Positions 24,132 to 32,944 of a stretch of 64,000 bases of DNA are shown one piece after another (the first letter of the stretch is position 1; each line of letters opens with the position of its first letter). The stretch spans positions 1,364,001-1,428,000 of the forward strand of contig NC_006047.2 of NCBI RefSeq assembly GCF_000006445.2. The letters are read 5' to 3'. Made by a program: the position numbers and the translations under genes. The notes beneath the pieces were generated by a model, which worked only from the letters and a program-made list of their open reading frames with translations, was not told where the DNA came from and did not search any database. The DNA comes from Debaryomyces hansenii CBS767. Taxonomy: Eukaryota; Ascomycota; Pichiomycetes; Serinales; Debaryomycetaceae.

Positions 24132-24302
24132 GGTACCTAAATGTGTAACGTTCTTTGCGATTACAACCCTCTATATCTTAGCACCGAACTCTTGGATTTG
24201 GATATTTGAAGAATGAATACGGTAAGTCTTCATCGAATTAATAGTCTAATAAACATTTTCATCTCTTTAATATTTGACCAGAACACGACCTGTCAGAATC
24301 TG

Positions 24303-24360
24303 TTTTTGCGGCCTACTGAAGTTGTTGCAGCCACAGACGTAAAGAAATAGACATATAAAA
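24303..24360 (+). promoter_or_regulatory. Unit A promoter: facing MSE-like pair plus TATA box
   Basis: TTTTTGCGGC at 24303-24312 is, on the minus strand, GCCGCAAAAA, which fits the mid-sporulation element consensus GNCRCAAAW. It faces GCCACAGAC at 24330-24338, a degenerate match. The TATA element ACATATAAAA at 24351-24360 follows. The same order and spacing recur at 27581 and 29528, which is why I regard it as functional. Binding by an Ndt80-type factor is inference. Confidence 0.6.
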
Positions 24361-24402
24361 GGAGGAATGATTGATGTGTAAAAGAAATATTTCTTTACAA
24401 AA

Positions 24403-24494
24403 TCAAGTTATTGTATCGATATATCTTTCAATATAATACATACTTATTTGCTTTTCACCTTTCTTACTAATTTTATTATCAATTTTGCTTTATA
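24403..24494 (+). promoter_or_regulatory. Conserved 5' leader of the array genes, unit A copy
   Basis: The stretch ending at the ATG shares with units B (27662-27780) and C (29614-29712) the order GTTATTGTA, GATAT, CTTT-TCAATA, TTGCTTT, and a terminal TTTATAATG or TTATAATG. Conservation of transcribed, untranslated DNA beside highly divergent coding sequence suggests recent duplication or selection on the leader. Confidence 0.55.
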
Positions 24495-25238
24495 ATGGCT
24501 TCTACTCAAGAAATTCATCATTTACCTGTTCAAGGACAAGATTTCAATATTCAAGGTGGTCATCGTTTGCAGCCTACTAAACCACCAACGTTCACACACA
24601 AGCCACATAAGAAATGTGTTGCTTGTGAGCCAGTTTGGAAACATAAACCACTGAAGAAGTGGAGCAAGCATAAGCTGAATAAAGATGAATGCTCTTCTTC
24701 TTCAAGTGATTCATGTCTGAGTACTTCTTCTTCAAATGATTCGTGTCTGAGATCTTCTTCTTCAAGTGATTCGTGCCTGAGATTTTCTTCGTCAAGTGAT
24801 TCGTGCCTGGATTCTTCTTCGTCAAGTGATTCGTGCCTGGATTCTTCTTCAGGATTCAAGCCAATTTGCAAGCATAAGCCACGTAAGGAATCCCATTTAC
24901 CTGTTAAGTGTTTCGAATCCAAGCACAAGTTGAAGAAGGGGAAAGGTCATTTCGTTCAAGGAAAAAAACCAAACTTAGAATGCAAGTTCAAACCAACTAA
25001 GCATTGTGAAGAGGATGTTCACAAATTGTTCGATTGTGAAGATAGATTTAGAAGGTGCTTAACATGTAAACAAGAATTTACTTGCGAATGTCTTGAACAT
25101 TCTCATTTCGGTTTGTGTGCACTCAGAGTATTCTTGACTAGAAGATGTGATTTTTTTGGTTGTCATAGGTTATGGGAAAAGCCATGGTCAAAGCCAGGGC
25201 CAGATAAATGTCAAACGTCACACGCGACAAAAAATTGA
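24495..25238 (+). CDS. Array head gene A: Cys/Ser-repeat protein (lineage-specific)
   Basis: I recognise no known family in this 247-residue protein. It has no signal peptide or membrane span. The basic N-terminal head contains KPHKKCVAC, equivalent to KATKCPGC of gene B and KHKKCHGC of gene C. The middle (about 67-119) is a tandem repeat of ten residues (DSCL-x-SSSS type, 30 bp in DNA) with a cysteine in each copy. The C-terminal third is cysteine-rich; its RFRRCLTCK block aligns with QYKRCAVCK of gene B. It ends with SKPGPDK, which could be the stub of a lost collagen tail. Cysteine richness suggests disulfide cross-linking or metal binding. The shared promoter and leader mark it as a member of the array. 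Function unknown. Confidence 0.7.
   Translation: MASTQEIHHLPVQGQDFNIQGGHRLQPTKPPTFTHKPHKKCVACEPVWKHKPLKKWSKHKLNKDECSSSSSDSCLSTSSSNDSCLRSSSSSDSCLRFSSSSDSCLDSSSSSDSCLDSSSGFKPICKHKPRKESHLPVKCFESKHKLKKGKGHFVQGKKPNLECKFKPTKHCEEDVHKLFDCEDRFRRCLTCKQEFTCECLEHSHFGLCALRVFLTRRCDFFGCHRLWEKPWSKPGPDKCQTSHATKN
24697..24846 (+). repeat. 30-bp coding tandem repeat in head gene A
   Basis: About five imperfect copies of a 30-base unit beginning near TCTTCTTCAAGTGATTC encode the DSCL/SSSS decapeptide. The copies nearest the 3' end are almost identical, implying recent expansion by slippage or unequal exchange. Confidence 0.8.
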
Positions 25239-25632
25239 GCGAGTGACGATGGTCTCTTTGACATTCAATTTACGGTAGTTGACAACGTCAGTCTTTAAGA
25301 AAGTATTTTGCAACTACTGTATGGTCTAGTTGATATGTTGAATAGAGTTGCCCCAAAAAACTCCCTTATGCGGTCTTGAGGGCATACTGATTCGATGGTG
25401 GGCTTGTAACGGTGAAGAAAAAGGTATCAACATTAAAAGATTGCATGAGATCTGATAATATATGCGCATAAAATCAGTCATATGATTAACTTCCTATATG
25501 GATGTGAATTGCAATCTTTCTAGTGGACATGAAACTTTGAAATTTCAGTTGACAGGTTATTGTTTTATGAGTAAAAAAAAATAATATAGGCCTTTTGAAA
25601 GGGTAAGTAGGTAAGTATTTGTATATTTTTAA
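25239..25632. other. Unit A intergenic segment
   Basis: About 390 bases separate the two unit-A genes. The final part, GGTAAGTAGGTAAGTATTTG near 25601-25621, resembles the corresponding 3' parts of units B (near 28756), C (near 31127) and D (near 31684). The segment is therefore part of the duplicated module. No ORF of note or RNA gene is seen. Confidence 0.5.
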
Positions 25633-26532
25633 ATGCACGAAAAAACAAAATTGAGTTCGCAGAAAAAAATTAAGACCCTTTTAGTTTTCAAACTTACAAA
25701 GGATGAAAAATCAATGTTCAATGAGCAAAAGAAAAGGATTGATATAGTTACAAGGAGACAACATACTTTACCTACCGATATTAATAGACATGTTGATGAC
25801 AGCGATTCCGAGATTACTTGTAGCTCAGTTATGGCAAATAGAACAAGCAGACCTAACGGACAAGCATCAACAATAGCCAACATTCAGGATAATGAAGACA
25901 GTAATGATAGACTAAGGGTAATAGAGTATAATTCTAAACTCCGGTCAAATTACAAGGATGGAAAAAAAGGAAAGAGAAAACGTAAATTAATTGAGTACGA
26001 TTATGGCGAAGAGGATCATGATTTAGACAATAACAATCAACTAATACAACTACCAGAACCGAGATTGAATGTTCAATATATTGGTAGAAGTTCAGATAAG
26101 TCAGCAAAGACGAGCAAAATGAGAACTTCTCCTTTTGCTTCTTATGACTATAGCGAAGATGTAGAAAGCAAAAAGCATTTATGCTCGTTAATATTAGAGA
26201 ATTTTGACAATCTAAACATAATCGAATTATTTAATGAAGAAGCTAATATTTTGCTACAGCTACATTTGTTTCATTTATACGTCTATTCCGTAGTTCACGA
26301 TCAAGATAAAACTTTTTTGGAAACAAATAACGGTCTTTTCAATTCAGGAACATTTATCAAAATACTAAACAACTTACTACAGGTGAACGAATTAAACCAT
26401 AATTTCAATGCAACGTTCACACCGGGCGATAATATAGTGACTCAAAAAAAGAACAAGAAAGAAAGAATTACTGAAAAGATAAACGTGCCTAATATCATAT
26501 TGAAAAGATTAGATATTCCCAACGAAAGTTAA
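25633..26532 (+). CDS. Array companion gene A2: charged protein of unknown function
   Basis: This 299-residue protein belongs to no family I know. The first 165 residues are Lys/Asp/Asn-rich, with a strongly basic, nuclear-signal-like KKGKRKRKLIEY at about residue 112. Residues 175-260 form an ordered, leucine-rich helical domain (HLCSLILENFDNLNIIELFN, FLETNNGLFNSGTFIKIL). The C-terminus is basic again. No signal peptide is present. A partial copy lies in unit B at 28915-29254, lacking about 105 codons and an initiating ATG. The unit-A copy is intact from ATG 25633 to TAA, so it is probably the surviving functional copy. The leucine-rich block is the best-conserved part between the copies, which suggests where the function lies. 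Confidence 0.65.
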   Translation: MHEKTKLSSQKKIKTLLVFKLTKDEKSMFNEQKKRIDIVTRRQHTLPTDINRHVDDSDSEITCSSVMANRTSRPNGQASTIANIQDNEDSNDRLRVIEYNSKLRSNYKDGKKGKRKRKLIEYDYGEEDHDLDNNNQLIQLPEPRLNVQYIGRSSDKSAKTSKMRTSPFASYDYSEDVESKKHLCSLILENFDNLNIIELFNEEANILLQLHLFHLYVYSVVHDQDKTFLETNNGLFNSGTFIKILNNLLQVNELNHNFNATFTPGDNIVTQKKNKKERITEKINVPNIILKRLDIPNES

Positions 26533-26544
26533 AATATATGCTGA

Positions 26545-26975
26545 ATATCCATTTTAATTATTGATAATGTTAATTAGATCATCCTCTACCGATACGATTT
26601 AAGTAAATTAATGCCGTCGTTTGACGAAAATAGCACTTTATAATTTTTAGACTAACAAAGTCTCATATATTTTATTGGCATTACTTGATAAAGGAATCCT
26701 GGCCAATTGAGTATTCAATATCTGACCATATATCGCATTAATTAGTTGTAACACCAAATATACTGGTATCTTAATGCAAACTTGTAAATAATAGCTATCA
26801 ATATGAATATATAATACACAATGTTAATAACACATCAGTAGCCTTTATTGGAATCATTCGTAGTAATAATTGTTTGCCAATGAAAACATGTTTCTGCTCC
26901 TAAAACCACCAACATTATACAACTATTGCAAATTGAACACTGCTACTATTGAGAAGAAAATCCACTTTCCAAAAT
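26545..26975 (-). pseudogene. Relic of SWF1 (unit A copy)
   Basis: This non-coding stretch can be read alongside the 3' two-thirds of the intact SWF1 gene (31811-32944) for about 430 bases in the same orientation. The shared GACGAAAATAGCAC (26623-26636 versus 31929-31942) and the region around ACATTATACAACTATTGCAAAT correspond to the SWF1 cysteine-rich segment. Indels and substitutions leave no open frame. Similarity fades after about 26975. It is a duplicated fragment, not an independent gene. Confidence 0.85.
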
Positions 26976-27570
26976 GTTTTCTCTCAAATGCTTCAAACAA
27001 GCTAGAGTAAAATTAAAGCTTCTGTTTAATAATGTCGTAAAAAATAGCTGTTTTCGAAATATTGACCATGATATCCATTGATGATCTAATTTTGAAGAAT
27101 AAAACGTTGATTTCTTGTTGGCCGTATGTTAAATAACAGCATTTTGAAATGAAGTTGATTAAAAAAATCCATTGTAACGCAAATGGACTTTTAATTGGTT
27201 GATATAAACCAAACTATGATTTCCGGAAGGATACATTTCTTAATTACTGATTTCGATACGACTCTAATTAATAATCCGAGGTCTCAAGAAAAAGTCTTAA
27301 TGATAGCTGACATTTAAGATGATAAAGACATATATAAGACATTGATTAGACAAAATCAACGAATATCTGAACAAAGAAGAAGGATCAAGGAAAAGGTAAA
27401 AAGAAACGAAGGTTAATTCAGTTATGGCGAGTCTAAAAAGACTACCAATAAACTAACAACTACTAAACACCAAATTGAAGGTTCGATTCCTTAATGGAAT
27501 TACAAATACTAAAGGAATATGGAATGAATGACGTAGATTTTATTTTCTTTTGCAATTGAAAGGTAAGATT
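26976..27570. other. Spacer between SWF1 relic and unit B
   Basis: About 600 AT-rich bases have no credible ORF. The segment may include further decayed SWF1 5' sequence, but I cannot align it by eye. A B-box-like GGTTCGATTCC at 27480-27490 has no matching A box or cloverleaf and I do not call a tRNA. Confidence 0.4.
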
Positions 27571-27580
27571 CAAAATTCTG

Positions 27581-27630
27581 TTTTTGCGGCCAACTGAAAT
27601 GGTTGCAGCCACAAAACGAAGCATATAAAA
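27581..27630 (+). promoter_or_regulatory. Unit B promoter: facing MSE-like pair plus TATA box
   Basis: TTTTTGCGGC (27581-27590) and GCCACAAAA (27608-27616) both fit the mid-sporulation consensus GNCRCAAAW, one on each strand, facing each other with 17 bases between. GCATATAAAA (27621-27630) follows. This is the best-preserved of the three copies. The conserved leader continues at 27662-27780. Confidence 0.65.
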
Positions 27631-27780
27631 GCTGTTGTTCTAGTATCTAACCGAAAAGATAATTATTTGTTCAAATAGTTATTGTACTGATATCTTTTTC
27701 AATAACGTATATACTTACTTGCTTTAGCCTTTCATATTAGTTTTGCTTTCAACTTGATTTGCTTTCAGATTTAGTTTATA

Positions 27781-28485
27781 ATGTCCACCCACAAGATTCA
27801 TCATAAATTTATTGATGAGGAAAAATTCCACTTAGAACAACCACCATTAGTTTGCAAACCCAAAGCTACAAAATGTCCGGGTTGCAAAAATCAATATAAA
27901 AGATGCGCAGTGTGCAAACGCCATATTAAGAAGCGCTACTGTCTTCAATGTATCCCAGGACCTCCAGGACGGCCAGGACCCCCAGGGCGGCGAGGGCCTC
28001 CAGGGCCTCCAGGGCCATCAGGGGAAATGGGTGATCAAGGACCTAAAGGGGCAACAGGTGGTCAAGGGGCGACTGGACCTTCAGGAGAAATAGGTGACCA
28101 AGGGCCTAAAGGAGCTGGTGGTGACAGAGGTATCAGCGGGGATACTGGTGTAGAAGGTGACCAAGGGCCTAAAGGAGCTGGTGGTGAAAGAGGTATCGGT
28201 GGACCTCAAGGTGTAGATGGTGACACCGGAACTAAAGGAGCGAGTGGTGGCGGAGGTATCACTGGGGCTAATGGTGTAGACGGTGACACGGGACATAAAG
28301 GAGCTAGTGGTGAAGGAGGTAACACCGGAGCTAATGGTGTAGACGGTGACACCGGACATAAAGGAGCTAGTGGTGAAGGAGGTAACACTGGAGCTAATGG
28401 TGTAGACGGTGACCAAGGGCCTAAGGGACCTCCAGGTATGCAAGGTCCCGCTGGGTTTCAAGGTGTAGAAGGTGATCCGGCTTAA
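27781..28485 (+). CDS. Array head gene B: collagen-like Gly-X-Y protein
   Basis: The protein has 234 residues. A 59-residue head carries three CxxC pairs (C32/C35, C42/C45, C54/C57) in a basic context (KRCAVCKRHIKKRY). From residue 60 to 233 follow 58 uninterrupted Gly-X-Y triplets. The first six are proline-rich, like a nucleation segment (GPPGRPGPPGRRGPPGPP); later ones are rich in GDQGPK and GANGVD. The last half is built on a 21-residue (63-bp) tandem unit. Such a run would be expected to form a collagen triple helix, with the Cys-rich head as a possible trimerising or metal-binding cap. There is no signal peptide. An open frame just past the stop (28487-28579) suggests that a frameshift shortened the C-terminus. 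Function unknown; the MSE-like promoter hints at developmental control. Confidence 0.85.
   Translation: MSTHKIHHKFIDEEKFHLEQPPLVCKPKATKCPGCKNQYKRCAVCKRHIKKRYCLQCIPGPPGRPGPPGRRGPPGPPGPSGEMGDQGPKGATGGQGATGPSGEIGDQGPKGAGGDRGISGDTGVEGDQGPKGAGGERGIGGPQGVDGDTGTKGASGGGGITGANGVDGDTGHKGASGEGGNTGANGVDGDTGHKGASGEGGNTGANGVDGDQGPKGPPGMQGPAGFQGVEGDPA
28227..28410 (+). repeat. 63-bp coding tandem repeat of collagen-like gene B
   Basis: Nearly three copies of a 63-base unit each encode seven Gly-X-Y triplets (GAS GEG GNT GAN GVD GDT GHK). The two downstream copies differ at only a few positions, so they are recent or homogenised. Unit length is a multiple of nine bases, which keeps the triple-helix register whatever the copy number. 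Confidence 0.85.
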
Positions 28486-28904
28486 CGGTGATGTTACTAA
28501 TGGCCAAAGCGATATTGATGGCGCTAACAATATTGAACAGTACAATCAGCACACGCAGGGCCAATGTTCAGATCCGTGATTAAATTCCCCTATGAACTAT
28601 TTCAAATGCAACCCTTTCAATATCATGAGACTACTGCAATAAGCAGACTTTAGTAGTCCGATTTTTATAAATGAAATATTGAAATTTTGGCCTTTCATCA
28701 ACTAGATGAGTATTTGAATATAAATAGAATGATATATATATAGGCTACTTGTATAGGTAAGTATATTTATAATACATGTATAATACAAAACCACTGAAAT
28801 CCCTACACCCATCATAGCTATAGAAAAAAGATGGTTGGAGGGGAGCTATATACAATACCTCATATAGTGATATAATTCCGAGATTCAGTAGTTAGTTATT
28901 ATAA
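28486..28904. other. Unit B intergenic segment
   Basis: This segment includes the out-of-frame extension of gene B up to TGA 28577-28579. Sequence resembling the 3' flanks of units C and D follows, for example TTTCAAATGCAA near 28609, also near 30838. GGTAAGTATATTTATA near 28756 matches the unit-A flank. No separate gene is seen. Confidence 0.5.
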
Positions 28905-28914
28905 ATACAAAGGA

Positions 28915-29254
28915 CAGGTTTAAGGAACAAGCATTAACAATAGCCAACATTCAGGATAACGAAGGCCGGAATCATAGACTAAGTATAATAAAATCTAATT
29001 CCAAACTCCGATCAATTTGTTCATTTATAATCTATTCCATAGTTCACGATCAAGATAAACCTTTTTTGGAAACAAACAGCGGTCTTTTCAATTCAGGAAC
29101 ATTTATCAAAATACTAAACAACTTACTACAGGTGAACGAACTAAATAATAATTTCAATGCGAAGTTCATACCGGGCGATTACATGGCGATTGATAACATG
29201 GCCATTCAAAAAAAGCACATGAAAGAAAGATGCATAGAATTGCAGTCATTATAA
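28915..29254 (+). pseudogene. Companion gene B2: internally deleted copy of A2
   Basis: Two blocks of the A2 gene are fused in frame. The first corresponds to A2 around 25858-25949 (TIANIQDNE...NSKLRS). It joins directly to the block starting near A2 26266 (YSIVHDQDKPFLET). About 315 bases are missing between them. No ATG precedes the joined frame, and a TAG lies just upstream. The C-terminus also differs from A2. The coding frame is otherwise open, so decay is fairly recent. Confidence 0.8.
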
Positions 29255-29478
29255 AAATGTGCTGAATAACCATTCTTATTAGTGACAAAATCATGATCAT
29301 AGATATTTTTTAAATCGTCCTATACCAATTCGACTTATGTCGCTCAATCCGTTATTTGAAGAATAGTGTTTTTAAGCTAATGGACACAGACTCATATTTT
29401 TCATGAATTGGGGCCAATTAAAATAGTAATTATCGCACTTACACTAGTTATAACACAAGAAGATATGGAACCCTTTAA
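29255..29478 (-). pseudogene. Relic of SWF1 (unit B copy)
   Basis: This is a shorter and more decayed copy of the SWF1 3' end. CATGATCATAGAT near 29292 corresponds to CATGATCATAAAT at 31861 in the intact gene. Similarity can be followed through the region matching TATCGCATTCATTAGTTGTG and is lost after about 29478. No open frame survives. Like the unit-A relic, it sits directly behind a companion-gene copy, showing that both were carried in one duplicated segment. Confidence 0.75.
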
Positions 29479-29527
29479 ATTGGCGCAATATCGATGCGGC
29501 ATATACACAAGCAAGCAGATATTCTGG

Positions 29528-29580
29528 TTTTGCGGCTACTGAAATGGTTGCCACAAACGTATTCTAAAACATATAAAAGG
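29528..29580 (+). promoter_or_regulatory. Unit C promoter: facing MSE-like pair plus TATA box
   Basis: TTTTGCGGC (29528-29536) fits the mid-sporulation consensus on the minus strand. GCCACAAAC (29550-29558) misses it by the last base on the plus strand. The spacing is four bases shorter than in units A and B. ATATAAAAGG at 29571-29580 is the TATA element. The conserved leader follows at 29614-29712. Confidence 0.6.
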
Positions 29581-29712
29581 AGGTGTTCGTATCAAGTAGG
29601 AAAGGTAAATTTTGTTCAAACAGTTATTGTATTGATATCTTTCTCAATAACATATTTTGCTTATTTGCTTTTTCGTCTTTCATACTAGTTTTGCTATCAA
29701 ACTTCGCTTATA

Positions 29713-30783
29713 ATGTCTTCCACTTATAATATTCAAGATTCGTTCCCACTTGAACCACTTCGCAAACCCAAACATAAAAAGTGTCATGGTTGCAAAAAGT
29801 GCTTGGGTTACAAACCAGTCCCAGGACCAAGGGGACCCAAGGGTGACCAGGGTGACAAAGGTATACAAGGATTGACAGGACCTGCAGGACCAGCAGGGCC
29901 AGCAGGACCTGCTGCACCAATTAGCTTTCTGATTAATACGACAAACACGAATACTCACAACCAGACCCTTTCCAATACCGATACCAACGATACCACTACC
30001 AATAATAGCCATTCCAAGGATCGCCACGATGCCGATATCGATGTCAATAAGAAACATATCGATCGCCACGATTTCGATATCGATGTCGACAAGAAATATA
30101 TCGATAAGAGTGATAATTCTAAGAAGTTCATTAAGAGTCTTAACGACAATTCCGACAATACCGATAAACACATCGATAAGAGCGATAATTCTAAGAAGTT
30201 CATTAAGAGTCTTAACGACAATTCCGACAATACGGATAAACACATCGATAAGAGCGATAATTCTAAGAAACATATTGATCGCCATGATATCGATATCGAT
30301 GTCGATAAGAAATATATAGATGAGAGTGATAATTCTAAGAAGTTCATTAAGAGTCTTAACGACAATTCCGACAATACCGATAAACACATCGATAAGAGCG
30401 ATAATTCTAAGAAACATGTTGATCGCCACGATATCGATATCGATGTCGACAAGAAATATATAGATGAGAGTGATAATTCTAAGAAGTTCATTAAGAGTCT
30501 TAACGACAATTCCGACAATACCGAGAACAAGAAACACATCGATAAGAGCGATAATTCTAAGAAGTTCATTAAGAGTCTTAACGACAATTCCGACAATACT
30601 GAGAACGAGAAACACATCGATAAGAGCGATAATTCTAAGAAGTTCATTAAGAGTCTTAACGACAATTCCGACAATACCGAGAACGAGAAACACATCGATA
30701 AGAGCGATAATTCTAAGAATATCAATAAGAGCCATAGCGACAATTCCAAGAATATCGATTTCGAGAAAAACATTAAGCATTAG
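29713..30783 (+). CDS. Array head gene C: short collagen stretch plus charged repeat tail
   Basis: This 356-residue protein starts with a head containing KHKKCHGCKKC. Ten Gly-X-Y triplets follow (residues 38-67; GPRGPKGDQGDKG then four GPA). A Thr/Asn-rich linker leads to a long hydrophilic tail (about 105-350) of 24-residue repeats containing HIDKSDNSKKFIKSLNDNS. A related variant, DRHDIDIDVDKKYID, is interspersed. The tail is highly charged, with regularly spaced Ile/Phe, so it could be an elongated helix or solenoid; it is not collagen. No signal peptide or membrane span is present. The collagen stretch is too short for a stable helix alone but matches the start of gene B's. Gene C thus looks like a family member whose triplet tail was replaced by another expanding repeat. 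Confidence 0.8.
   Translation: MSSTYNIQDSFPLEPLRKPKHKKCHGCKKCLGYKPVPGPRGPKGDQGDKGIQGLTGPAGPAGPAGPAAPISFLINTTNTNTHNQTLSNTDTNDTTTNNSHSKDRHDADIDVNKKHIDRHDFDIDVDKKYIDKSDNSKKFIKSLNDNSDNTDKHIDKSDNSKKFIKSLNDNSDNTDKHIDKSDNSKKHIDRHDIDIDVDKKYIDESDNSKKFIKSLNDNSDNTDKHIDKSDNSKKHVDRHDIDIDVDKKYIDESDNSKKFIKSLNDNSDNTENKKHIDKSDNSKKFIKSLNDNSDNTENEKHIDKSDNSKKFIKSLNDNSDNTENEKHIDKSDNSKNINKSHSDNSKNIDFEKNIKH
30107..30770 (+). repeat. 72-bp coding minisatellite of gene C
   Basis: Repeats of about 72 bases encode 24 residues; a shorter interspersed unit around GATCGCCACGATATCGATAT encodes the DRHDIDIDVD variant. Long runs are identical between copies, including AAGTTCATTAAGAGTCTTAA, which recurs seven times. This implies recent expansion or gene conversion. 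Because the unit length is a multiple of three and lacks stops in several frames, long antisense ORFs appear here as artefacts. Confidence 0.9.
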
Positions 30784-30939
30784 TGATACCGTAACCTCAT
30801 TTGTTTAATTATGTGGTCAAATTTCTCTGTGACTTATTTCAAATGCAATCTTTTGATATCACGAGGCGTAGAATAACCTATTATTTAACATTTGAACTTT
30901 GGGATTTATAAAATGAATGAGTTGAAGGTATATGAATGT
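30784..30939. other. Unit C 3' flank
   Basis: This is sequence between the gene C stop and the minisatellite. GTGACTTATTTCAAATGCAA at about 30828-30847 resembles the flank of gene B, confirming homology of the whole unit beyond the coding sequence. No gene is seen. Confidence 0.5.
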
Positions 30940-31123
30940 TGTTGAGAAGTAATTGAAGGTAATTGAAGGTATTTGAAAGGTTGTTGAAGGTTGTTGAAGG
31001 TTGTTGAAGGTTGTTGAAGGTTGTTGAAGGTTGTTGAAGGTAGTTGAAAGGTAGTTGAAGGTCGTTGAAGGTTGTTGAAGGTAGTTGAAAGGTAGTTGAA
31101 GGTAGTTGAAAGGTAGTTGAAAG
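30940..31123. repeat. 10-11 bp GTTGTTGAAG minisatellite
   Basis: About 18 copies of GTTGTTGAAG and one-base variants (GTAGTTGAAAG, GTCGTTGAAG) stand in tandem in the 3' flank of unit C. Unit lengths of 10 and 11 mix. Reading frames through it are shadows. It lies where the flanks of the other units carry only single GTTGAAG-like motifs, so it expanded after duplication. Confidence 0.9.
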
Positions 31124-31159
31124 AGTAAATAGGTAGTATGTTTTGTATATTCAATTAAT

Positions 31160-31530
31160 AAAATGGTTGCAACCACAAAGCGTATCCCAAAATATATTAA
31201 AGCGGTTGATTAATCAATTGGAAACGAGTAGGTCAATTTTATTGATATTCTTTTCAATGAGGTCTTAATTAACTACAAGTTTGGTCTGCAAAGACGAATT
31301 TAAAAGTTGTTCCAGTTGCAGCACCGAAGTAAAAAGTGGTCAGTATCAAAATCATCATGTTAAAAGGTACATCAAAGGCAAAGAAATATCAGGGCTTTCA
31401 CGAGTGACAACCGGATCTCAAGGTTGAGCCACGTAGAAGACTAATGGTCCAATCAGTGAAAGTCATTTGGGGAGCAATGGGACCATAAGAACAACCAGAT
31501 GGATAATGACCAGGTTTAATTCCGTGACTA
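31160..31530 (+). pseudogene. Array unit D: decayed promoter and head gene
   Basis: A promoter remnant (GGTTGCAACCACAAAG, 31165-31180) and AATATATTAAAG in place of the TATA box precede leader-like TTATTGATATTCTTTTCAAT. From 31287 a frame reads CKDEFKSCSSC, equivalent to NQYKRCAVC of gene B, and is then closed by TGA at 31425. Further downstream, fragments such as NGPIS and GSNGT may be remnants of a Gly-X-Y tail. No ATG opens the frame. The 3' flank (GTGACTAAATCTCCCTACGA at about 31522) matches that of gene B. Confidence 0.7.
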
Positions 31531-31810
31531 AATCTCCCTACGAGCATTTTTTTTTTAAATATGCTTAGCTATTACAACAAACAGATTTAACAGCATTTGA
31601 AATGGTGCGATTTGAAGTTACGTATGCAAAATGAATGTAAAATGAATGAGAAATATATACGTACTCCCAAGCTAATCGAAAGATTAAGTAAGTATGCTTT
31701 GTATGTTCGATTATTATATAATTAAATTGGAACTTCGTAGTCTTCGGATATACAGATCCAAAGAAAGAGCTTCAAAACAAGAACCACGGGCAAATGTTGA
31801 GATTAGAAAT
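31531..31810. other. Unit D 3' flank up to SWF1
   Basis: This is AT-rich flank homologous to that of the other units (AAGTAAGTATGCTTTGTATG near 31686-31705). It may contain a trace of a companion gene around 31770 (TTGAGATTAGAAATTC), too weak to call. No ORF is seen. Confidence 0.4.
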
Positions 31811-32944
31811 TCAATTAAGAACTCTATTAAACATTCGTTCTTTTAAATTATCCACAAAGCCATGATCATAAATGTTAATTAGATCGTCCTCCATCGATTC
31901 AATTTTACGTAGATTAATGCCGTCATTAGACGAAAATAGCACATTTTCATTCTTTAAACTAATGAACACAGTTTCGTATGAATCATTGTCGTGATTCATT
32001 ATTACACACTTCTCCACATATTTTTCATTCAAATTACTATCTATGACTTGATAAAGCGAACCAAGGCTAATCAAATACTCAACTTCCGACCATTTATCGC
32101 ATTCATTAGTTGTGACGCCTAGATACAAATATCTCAAATGTAAACCTGTAAATAAAACAGCTATCATTATGAATATAACGCATAGTATTAATAATACGCC
32201 AGTAGCCTTATTTGAATCATTTGTAGAAATAATTGTTTTCCAATAACTTAAAGTTGGAAATTCAGTTTTCGTAGAAGACATCGCTTGATAGCATAAATAC
32301 CCACCGTAACCCAATAGGTTGATATTCGCTATTAAAAATCCCATGAACCATTTATAATTATAGTACCCAACACAATTGTTGACCCAAATACAGTGGTGAT
32401 CAAACAACATTATACAATTATTACAGATTGAACAATGCTTTGATCTTGCAGGCTTGATAATCTCACAAGTGGAACAGTAGTTATCTGCAAAGAATATCAA
32501 TTCGTTGTTTTGGAAAAAGTTATCCACTTTGTCAACGTTACCGGTAGTTATTTTGCCAGGATTACTGAACGTAGCCATGAATGTGTCTATGAAAATGCAC
32601 AAGATTGTAAATGCGATGTAAGTTGAATGAAAGCCACTTTTTCTTACGAATAAAGGTAAAAGTTTATAAACCTTGGTAAAAAATTGATGCAAGCAAAAAC
32701 TAACAACAATAATGTAGAATAACGGAACCAACCATCCTGAATAAAATACTAACTTATTACCAAAAACATGTGAATCAACGTAATTGATCCAAGCAATAAT
32801 ATCATGATTCCATCGTAATATTTTCAATCTTAACTTGTATATCGGAGTGTTCCTGAAATTGGGAGAATTACCGAAGATCACTATACTAATTAATATAGCA
32901 GACAATAATACTATGCATATTATAACAGTAAATGGTAAACTCAT
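31811..32944 (-). CDS. SWF1: Swf1, DHHC palmitoyltransferase
   Basis: The 377-residue membrane enzyme transfers palmitate to cysteines near membrane spans, with SNAREs such as Tlg1 and Snc1 as the known Swf1 substrates in Saccharomyces. The cysteine-rich domain runs from C157 to C191 with the catalytic DHHC at 182-185 (FDHHCIWVNNC). The segment KPARSKHCSICN and the downstream TTNECDKW (TTxE motif) are characteristic of Swf1. Hydrophobic segments lie at about 4-24, 67-90, 106-126, 198-220 and 247-272. The C-terminal NIYDHGFVDNL also fits Swf1. It is convergent with the collagen-like array, and relics of its 3' end occur twice inside that array. Confidence 0.92.
   Translation of the reverse strand: MSLPFTVIICIVLLSAILISIVIFGNSPNFRNTPIYKLRLKILRWNHDIIAWINYVDSHVFGNKLVFYSGWLVPLFYIIVVSFCLHQFFTKVYKLLPLFVRKSGFHSTYIAFTILCIFIDTFMATFSNPGKITTGNVDKVDNFFQNNELIFFADNYCSTCEIIKPARSKHCSICNNCIMLFDHHCIWVNNCVGYYNYKWFMGFLIANINLLGYGGYLCYQAMSSTKTEFPTLSYWKTIISTNDSNKATGVLLILCVIFIMIAVLFTGLHLRYLYLGVTTNECDKWSEVEYLISLGSLYQVIDSNLNEKYVEKCVIMNHDNDSYETVFISLKNENVLFSSNDGINLRKIESMEDDLINIYDHGFVDNLKERMFNRVLN

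Follow-up and report, generated by a model that had tools for sequence, protein, structure and literature searches.

Tandem gene arrays have been described in yeasts, and in its available text Despons et al. 2010 (PMC2822764) gives Debaryomyces hansenii the highest share of tandem genes, 4.4%, among nine yeasts. Proteins with Gly-X-Y repeats are scattered over life, and the origin of such repeats is hard to observe. Among fungi, MCL1 of Metarhizium is a protein with a collagen domain which the available text of PMC7776561 describes as so far unique to Metarhizium. Collagen-type sequence is unusual in budding yeast, and among the matches listed in a literature search no title or start of an abstract described a collagen-like array there. 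Here we analyzed a stretch of 64,000 nucleotides from D. hansenii CBS767, a salt-tolerant yeast of foods (C5:1364001-1428000, the window; positions without prefix count from its first letter) in which a probable parent gene (A), a collagen-bearing copy (B), a part-collagen copy (C) and a dead copy (D) are adjacent, with gene relics between them which may be used as a rough clock. We consider it likely that this is a tandem array of a known kind, formed by local duplication and then by in-frame minisatellite growth at gene ends.

Array layout and the relics between units

Four consecutive units were located in the window, as a first-pass annotation made from this DNA had proposed. Open reading frames (ORFs) A (24495-25238, 247 residues), B (27781-28485, 234 residues) and C (29713-30783, 356 residues) all lie on the plus strand. 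The codon CTG was read as serine, which we take to be the code of D. hansenii (order Serinales) and its clade; this alters seven residues of A and one of C, and the DSCS repeats of A are compatible with it. Unit D (31156-31640, plus strand) is a broken, B-like copy with traces of leader, head and flank. Stops occur in all three frames of 31270-31560, and the score of the protein trace shared by D and B was reached by none of 2000 shuffles. The units are adjacent homologous copies, with relics allowed, and as such form a tandem gene array.

The repeat unit is wider than first proposed, as the duplicated block also carried two passenger genes whose relics survive between the units. An intact ORF of 299 codons without a Pfam family follows A (25633-26532, plus strand), and a partial copy of it is found by sequence comparison in unit B (28875-29213, plus strand). 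The second passenger is an antisense gene for a DHHC palmitoyltransferase, of which a relic with internal stops was recognized by protein match in unit A (26566-26944, minus strand) and another in unit B (29235-29404, minus strand). The source type of these relics is an intact gene of 377 residues on the far side of unit D (31811-32944, minus strand; PF01529, 3.3e-33; match to the solved ZDHHC9 sequence, 4.6e-22).

The leaders of A (24283-24494, the promoter with the CATATAAAAG TATA-like block plus the 5' leader), B (27561-27780) and C (29505-29712), all on the plus strand, align with z scores of 21.5 (A-B), 26.7 (A-C) and 28.0 (B-C), and by this similarity are homologous beyond doubt. The leader of D scores 8.5 to B, 10.1 to C and 1.8 to A, and appears as a trace related to the leaders of B and C and not detectably to that of A. 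Whole-genome DNA and pattern searches, which covered 12,181,948 bases in 8 contigs and which the D trace escapes, gave no leader copies beyond those of A, B and C. For the 3' flanks the z scores were 8.8 (B-C), 4.6 (A-B, rising to 8.0 with longer stretches compared), 3.9 (B-D), 3.3 (C-D), 0.2 (A-C) and -0.7 (A-D). A leader and a 3' flank common to all four units had been claimed; the leader holds for A, B and C and for D with B and C, and the flank clearly for B-C, more weakly for A-B, B-D and C-D and not for A-C or A-D.

Decayed DNA within the array gives a yardstick for the leaders. Their ungapped identity is 0.77 (A-B), 0.75 (A-C) and 0.83 (B-C). By the same measure the 299-codon ORF is 0.77 identical to its own relic (0.86 and 0.78 in two parts), the DHHC relics are 0.80 and 0.73 (the latter in unit B) identical to the intact gene, and the two relics are 0.73 identical to each other, the one figure here that is free of constraint on both sides, although it comes from an alignment with gaps over 154 columns. 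The leader pair A-B is hardly above this decayed DNA or the A-B 3' flank (0.71). Since the relics show about the same identity as the leaders, shared ancestry can suffice to explain the likeness of the leaders. The conserved leader was considered as proof of shared regulation and rejected, the relics being about equally similar; the "conserved control DNA" of the first-pass annotation likewise finds no support, with leader identities of 0.75-0.83 next to 0.73-0.86 for the relics. The invariant leader columns cluster modestly near the TTTTGCGGC block and the CATATAAAAG block (permutations reaching the observed value: 102 of 5000 for 30 columns, 331 of 5000 for 20 and 441 of 5000 for 10), and the TATA-like block and a TTATA before the start are kept in all three leaders.

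Repeat tails and Cys-rich heads

Gene A is rich in Cys, Lys and His and has a 30-bp (10-residue) Ser/Cys repeat in 5.3 copies (24693-24850, plus strand; tandem-repeat scan), the DSCS decapeptide repeat, followed by a C-terminal Cys domain (residues 155-210; 24957-25124, plus strand). A protein search with A gave five clusters among 2150 candidates. P0019, on a 1.56-Mb contig, is 96% identical to A (its CTG codons read as Leu), and P0020, P0021, P0022 and P0023 are 64, 56, 42 and 35% identical, with the same start, Ser-rich middle and C-terminal Cys domain. Since these relatives have the layout of A, A is probably the ancestral family member. Copies of A, B or C elsewhere in the genome were not found, with the exception of a single weak match to A on C4 (expect value (E) 0.012); no relative of the A family was confirmed in viral contigs (77 pattern stretches), and the best match of the family in a PDB sequence search had an E of 0.85. 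CTG codons read as Ser make up 7 of the 247 codons of A (28 per 1000) and 37 of 11018 (3.4 per 1000) in 15 other ORFs of the window; five of the seven belong to the DSCS repeat, together with which this rare codon was amplified. A match of A to clumping factor ClfB (4.5e-5) is far under the cut-off and was taken as low-complexity noise.

Gene B consists of a 59-residue Cys-rich head and 58 uninterrupted Gly-X-Y triplets, which Pfam Collagen (PF01391) recognizes at 1.2e-21 (76.6 bits, cut-off 27.2). Most of this tail is encoded by a ladder of in-frame minisatellites of 9/18 bp and 63/126 bp (27955-28428, plus strand; tandem-repeat scan); of the 174 residues of the collagen stretch 33 are charged, GPP occurs five times, and there is no KGD/KGE pair. 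Gene C has a short head and 10 triplets (counted by eye), which remain under the same cut-off at 23.6 bits, and then Asp/Asn/Lys/Ser repeats of 24/26 residues (72/78 bp) with nine anchors, all in frame. Five Pfam Collagen matches were found in the genome, four in B and one in C. Within A, B and C the tandem-repeat scan gave 14 rows, each with a period divisible by 3, whereas the non-coding array beside C moves in steps of 10-11 bp; this array, a TTGAAGGT minisatellite, lies between C and D (30920-31121). The repeat contents reported by the first-pass annotation (the Ser/Cys repeat of A, 58 triplets in B, 10 triplets plus a repeat in C, a decayed frame in D) were all recovered, and its picture of a yeast family with common leaders, differing repeat-rich ends and collagen-like stretches in two members stands.

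Judged by hydropathy only, A, B and C are without the hydrophobic start of a signal peptide such as animal secreted collagens carry; the best mean 11-residue hydropathy over the first 60 start positions was -0.16 for A, 0.26 for B and 0.41 for C. An ORF of 366 residues runs antisense over nearly all of C (29680-30780, minus strand), the repeats being without stops on both strands. C matched WHD_MCM8 at 4.7e-5, under the cut-off, which we took as low-complexity noise.

A head common to the units had also been proposed. In DNA the z scores of the heads were 7.5 for B-C (over 40 bp), 5.7 for B-D, 3.3 for A-C, 1.8 for C-D, 1.7 for A-B and -0.7 for A-D, so that the proposal is upheld for B and C, weak for A and B and fails for A and D. 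For the protein heads the score was reached by 20 (A-B), 0 (A-C) and 9 (B-C) of 2000 shuffles. Residues 1-22 of B compared with full-length A gave 47 of 2000 shuffles, and with P0020-P0023 232, 10, 11 and 0 of 2000. The Cys-rich part of B (residues 23-59) matches later Cys-rich parts of the five A-type sequences (3, 7, 4, 2 and 0 of 2000 shuffles); the matched part has its end within the C-terminal Cys domain (RRCL(T/I)CK...CECL) of A, P0020, P0021 and P0022, and in P0023 it falls in a Cys-rich stretch just ahead of that domain.

With a profile of A residues 155-210 the score was 14.3 bits for the B head (0 of 2000 shuffles) and 8.0 bits for D (11 of 2000), and profiles of A residues 1-60, 120-160 and 200-247 gave the B head at most 1.3 bits. 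A simple "same head" for A and B was rejected, as the B head reached 1.3 bits (85 of 2000 shuffles) with the N-terminal profile of A against 14.3 bits with the C-terminal Cys profile. Alignment of the heads in profile comparison had been put forward as a test; when it was run with hhalign on whole profiles the heads remained unaligned, and residues 22-46 of the B head were paired with part of the A tail, in another register and at low probability (6.6%, P 0.0056). A relation between the A tail and the B head is supported with moderate statistics, and these alignments make B, as well as D with some probability, resemble an A that has lost its middle. The C head scored 8.9 bits with the N-terminal profile of A (9 of 2000 shuffles), and 104 of 2000 shuffles reached its score with the C-terminal profile and 5 of 2000 with the B head. 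Growth of the collagen from the terminal codons of A was not convincing, the end of A giving 20 of 500 shuffles with C and 143 of 500 with B.

Proposed history and competing explanations

In the history that we propose, a block of gene A, the 299-codon ORF and the antisense DHHC gene was duplicated in tandem; the extra passenger copies decayed, and of the copies of the Cys-rich gene A, B and C stayed open and D died. B probably lost the middle part of A, and the start peptide would now precede a relative of the C-terminal Cys domain of A. Behind this domain a G+C-rich 9-bp minisatellite then probably grew into 63-bp blocks which read as collagen. C has a shorter collagen stretch and, after it, a second and different minisatellite tail. 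The sequence comparisons show the duplication, the relics and the in-frame repeats; we infer the order of events, the ancestral place of A in it, and that the proteins of A, B and C are made.

Several results weigh against this reading of the heads and leaders, and on selection in B the results are mixed. The bit scores linking the A tail and the B head are low in absolute terms, one B shuffle having reached 20.0 bits with the N-terminal profile of A, and the register of the match differs between methods. In DNA the match was reached by 0 of 500 codon shuffles, by 4 of 2000 dinucleotide shuffles, and by 18 of 2000 for the Cys part alone. The deletion step may fail for C, whose head is nearer to the N-terminal profile of A. 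The B-C leader (0.83) is more alike than the B-C 3' flank (0.67), so that constraint on the leaders may or may not exist, and the AlphaFold model of A was uninformative (mean predicted local distance difference test score 42.3). In favor of selection, in the six 63-bp blocks of B none of the 14 first and second positions of Gly codons vary, and of the 28 such positions of X/Y codons 19 do (p 2.7e-5). On the other side, the triplet run was chosen for being uninterrupted, and Gly third positions vary at 2 of 7 sites, their contrast with positions 1-2 having a p of 0.10. The ratio of non-synonymous to synonymous differences (pN/pS) is 0.88 for five B blocks and lower in one wrong frame (0.186/0.269 = 0.69), and for the A repeat it is 0.47, equaled in a wrong frame (0.144/0.292 = 0.49). 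Since wrong frames match or undercut the true ones, pN/pS gives no support for selection. Taken together these results favor, without establishing it, constraint on B to keep a triple-helix sequence. Nor was any relative of B or C recognized. A protein search with B residues 1-100 (11 of 7225 candidates passed) and one with a profile built from B and C residues 1-110 (2729 of 7996 scored passed, 120 of them listed) gave no listed row above 60% identity, and among the listed rows of the profile search, most of them unnamed, no yeast B or C was recognized. This is weak evidence of absence, as gene calling may differ in those sources or such proteins may lie beyond the length limits there.

A serious alternative, though we place it short of even, is that B and C lack expression or are dying duplicates and that the collagen tail is a chance reading of a G+C-rich minisatellite, which would be compatible with the duplication history. 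It would fit the death of D, the pN/pS of the B blocks, the nearly full-length open frame antisense to C, and the recognition of an allele of A, and none of B or C, in the protein database. It would also fit that behind the B stop the +1 frame runs on for 30 codons without a stop, possibly the trace of an end that shifted frame. Set against it are the constancy of the B glycines between blocks, the TATA-like block and TTATA kept before all three starts, and the C repeat anchors, all in frame. The first-pass annotation had seen a locus which generates structural-protein diversity, its tails swapped or re-expanded behind conserved control DNA. Three open members with common leaders and different repeat types, the greater likeness of B and C in the leader than in the flank, and the tendency of tandem repeats to change length speak for such a locus. 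We nevertheless hold it to be quite improbable, as the leaders are about as similar as the relics and own-genome searches found no tail donors. Nor do the data support "interchangeable" tails: the only tail type seen on two heads is the collagen stretch shared by B and C, which was possibly inherited, and the B head itself seems to come partly from the A tail. In-frame minisatellite growth in duplicated genes would explain the pattern, and nothing pointing to a programmed generator of diversity was seen.

Two further explanations concern control and origin. A match to the mid-sporulation element motif, which we take to be gNCRCAAAW, is present in all three leaders as GCCGCAAAA, with a second match in B, and a 24-25 bp block with GCCGCAAAA is found genome-wide only at these leaders, from which the pattern was drawn. 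Ndt80-like control of wall proteins induced by sporulation or stress would account for this; still, the window has 11 motif matches where 9.9 are expected (42 of 100 shuffles had as many), the three copies were inherited and are not independent, the clustering of invariant columns is modest and A, B and C have no hydrophobic start. We therefore think this improbable, and treat the element as a suggestive lead only. Horizontal transfer of the collagen part from a bacterium, virus or animal appears very improbable. The named protein matches are indeed animal and bacterial collagen-like proteins and one phage tail protein, but such matches follow from Gly-X-Y composition, and the tail is part of a locally duplicated gene and has a repeat ladder from 9 bp to 63 bp; donors were sought in the two protein searches with B and with B plus C.

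Returning to duplication with minisatellite growth, we tentatively propose, at less than even confidence, that the proteins, if made, consist of a non-secreted Lys/His/Cys-rich domain which brings chains together through contacts of Cys or metal and a rod-like or disordered repeat tail of drifting length. If they are expressed, intracellular or unconventionally exported assemblies, held by that domain and kept at a distance by the repeat tail, would be likeliest. It seems rather doubtful that B and C are expressed and selected, non-secreted collagen-like proteins of recent origin from an in-frame 9-bp minisatellite behind a Cys-rich domain; if this were true, it would be a datable origin of collagen outside animals and bacteria. 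Should B or C be made, the birth and folding of a collagen-like protein could be tested directly in a yeast cell, and should they not be made, the array would still be a clear case of coding minisatellites reshaping tandem duplicates.

Neighboring features and comparison with described systems

Repeats were also noted elsewhere in the window. An ORF of 84 residues (36617-36871, minus strand) is hydrophobic at both ends, contains GASNGT(A/V)G repeats encoded by 24-bp units, and presumably resembles a small wall protein of the glycosylphosphatidylinositol type. A flavoprotein-domain protein (PF02441; 39556-41376, minus strand), which we take to resemble salt-tolerance regulators of the Hal3/Sis2 type, contains a TCATCATCG repeat region that would encode an Asp-rich stretch. 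The window is preceded, at a distance of 2.0 kb, by a match to the Rad51/Dmc1 family (C5:1361274-1361999); D. hansenii DMC1 is given as DEHA2E16742 in the available text of PMC10699112, a tag which places that gene on chromosome E.

Among collagen-like proteins, streptococcal Scl1/Scl2 and Lcl share Gly-X-Y stretches with B, which scores 73.0-79.5 bits with their NCBIfam models, well short of the curated cut-offs of 325-500 bits, that of the LPXTG collagen-like adhesins Scl1/Scl2 included; unlike B, those are bacterial surface proteins. Hydra minicollagens, which are secreted animal proteins, have a short collagen stretch beside a Cys-rich domain, and their likeness to B is one of layout only. 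Collagen was reportedly described in fungi, in fimbriae, by Celerin in 1996 (as cited in PMC2852846), and B and C compare with it only at the level of a report of fungal collagen. MCL1 of Metarhizium belongs to an insect pathogen and acts in immune evasion according to the available text of PMC7776561, and it resembles B and C by description only. The closest counterparts are the yeast tandem gene arrays of Despons et al. 2010 (PMC2822764). The words "collagen" and "DEHA2E" are both absent from the main text of that paper; the arrays it describes, as far as its available text goes, likewise combine tandem copies, gene relics and coding minisatellites.

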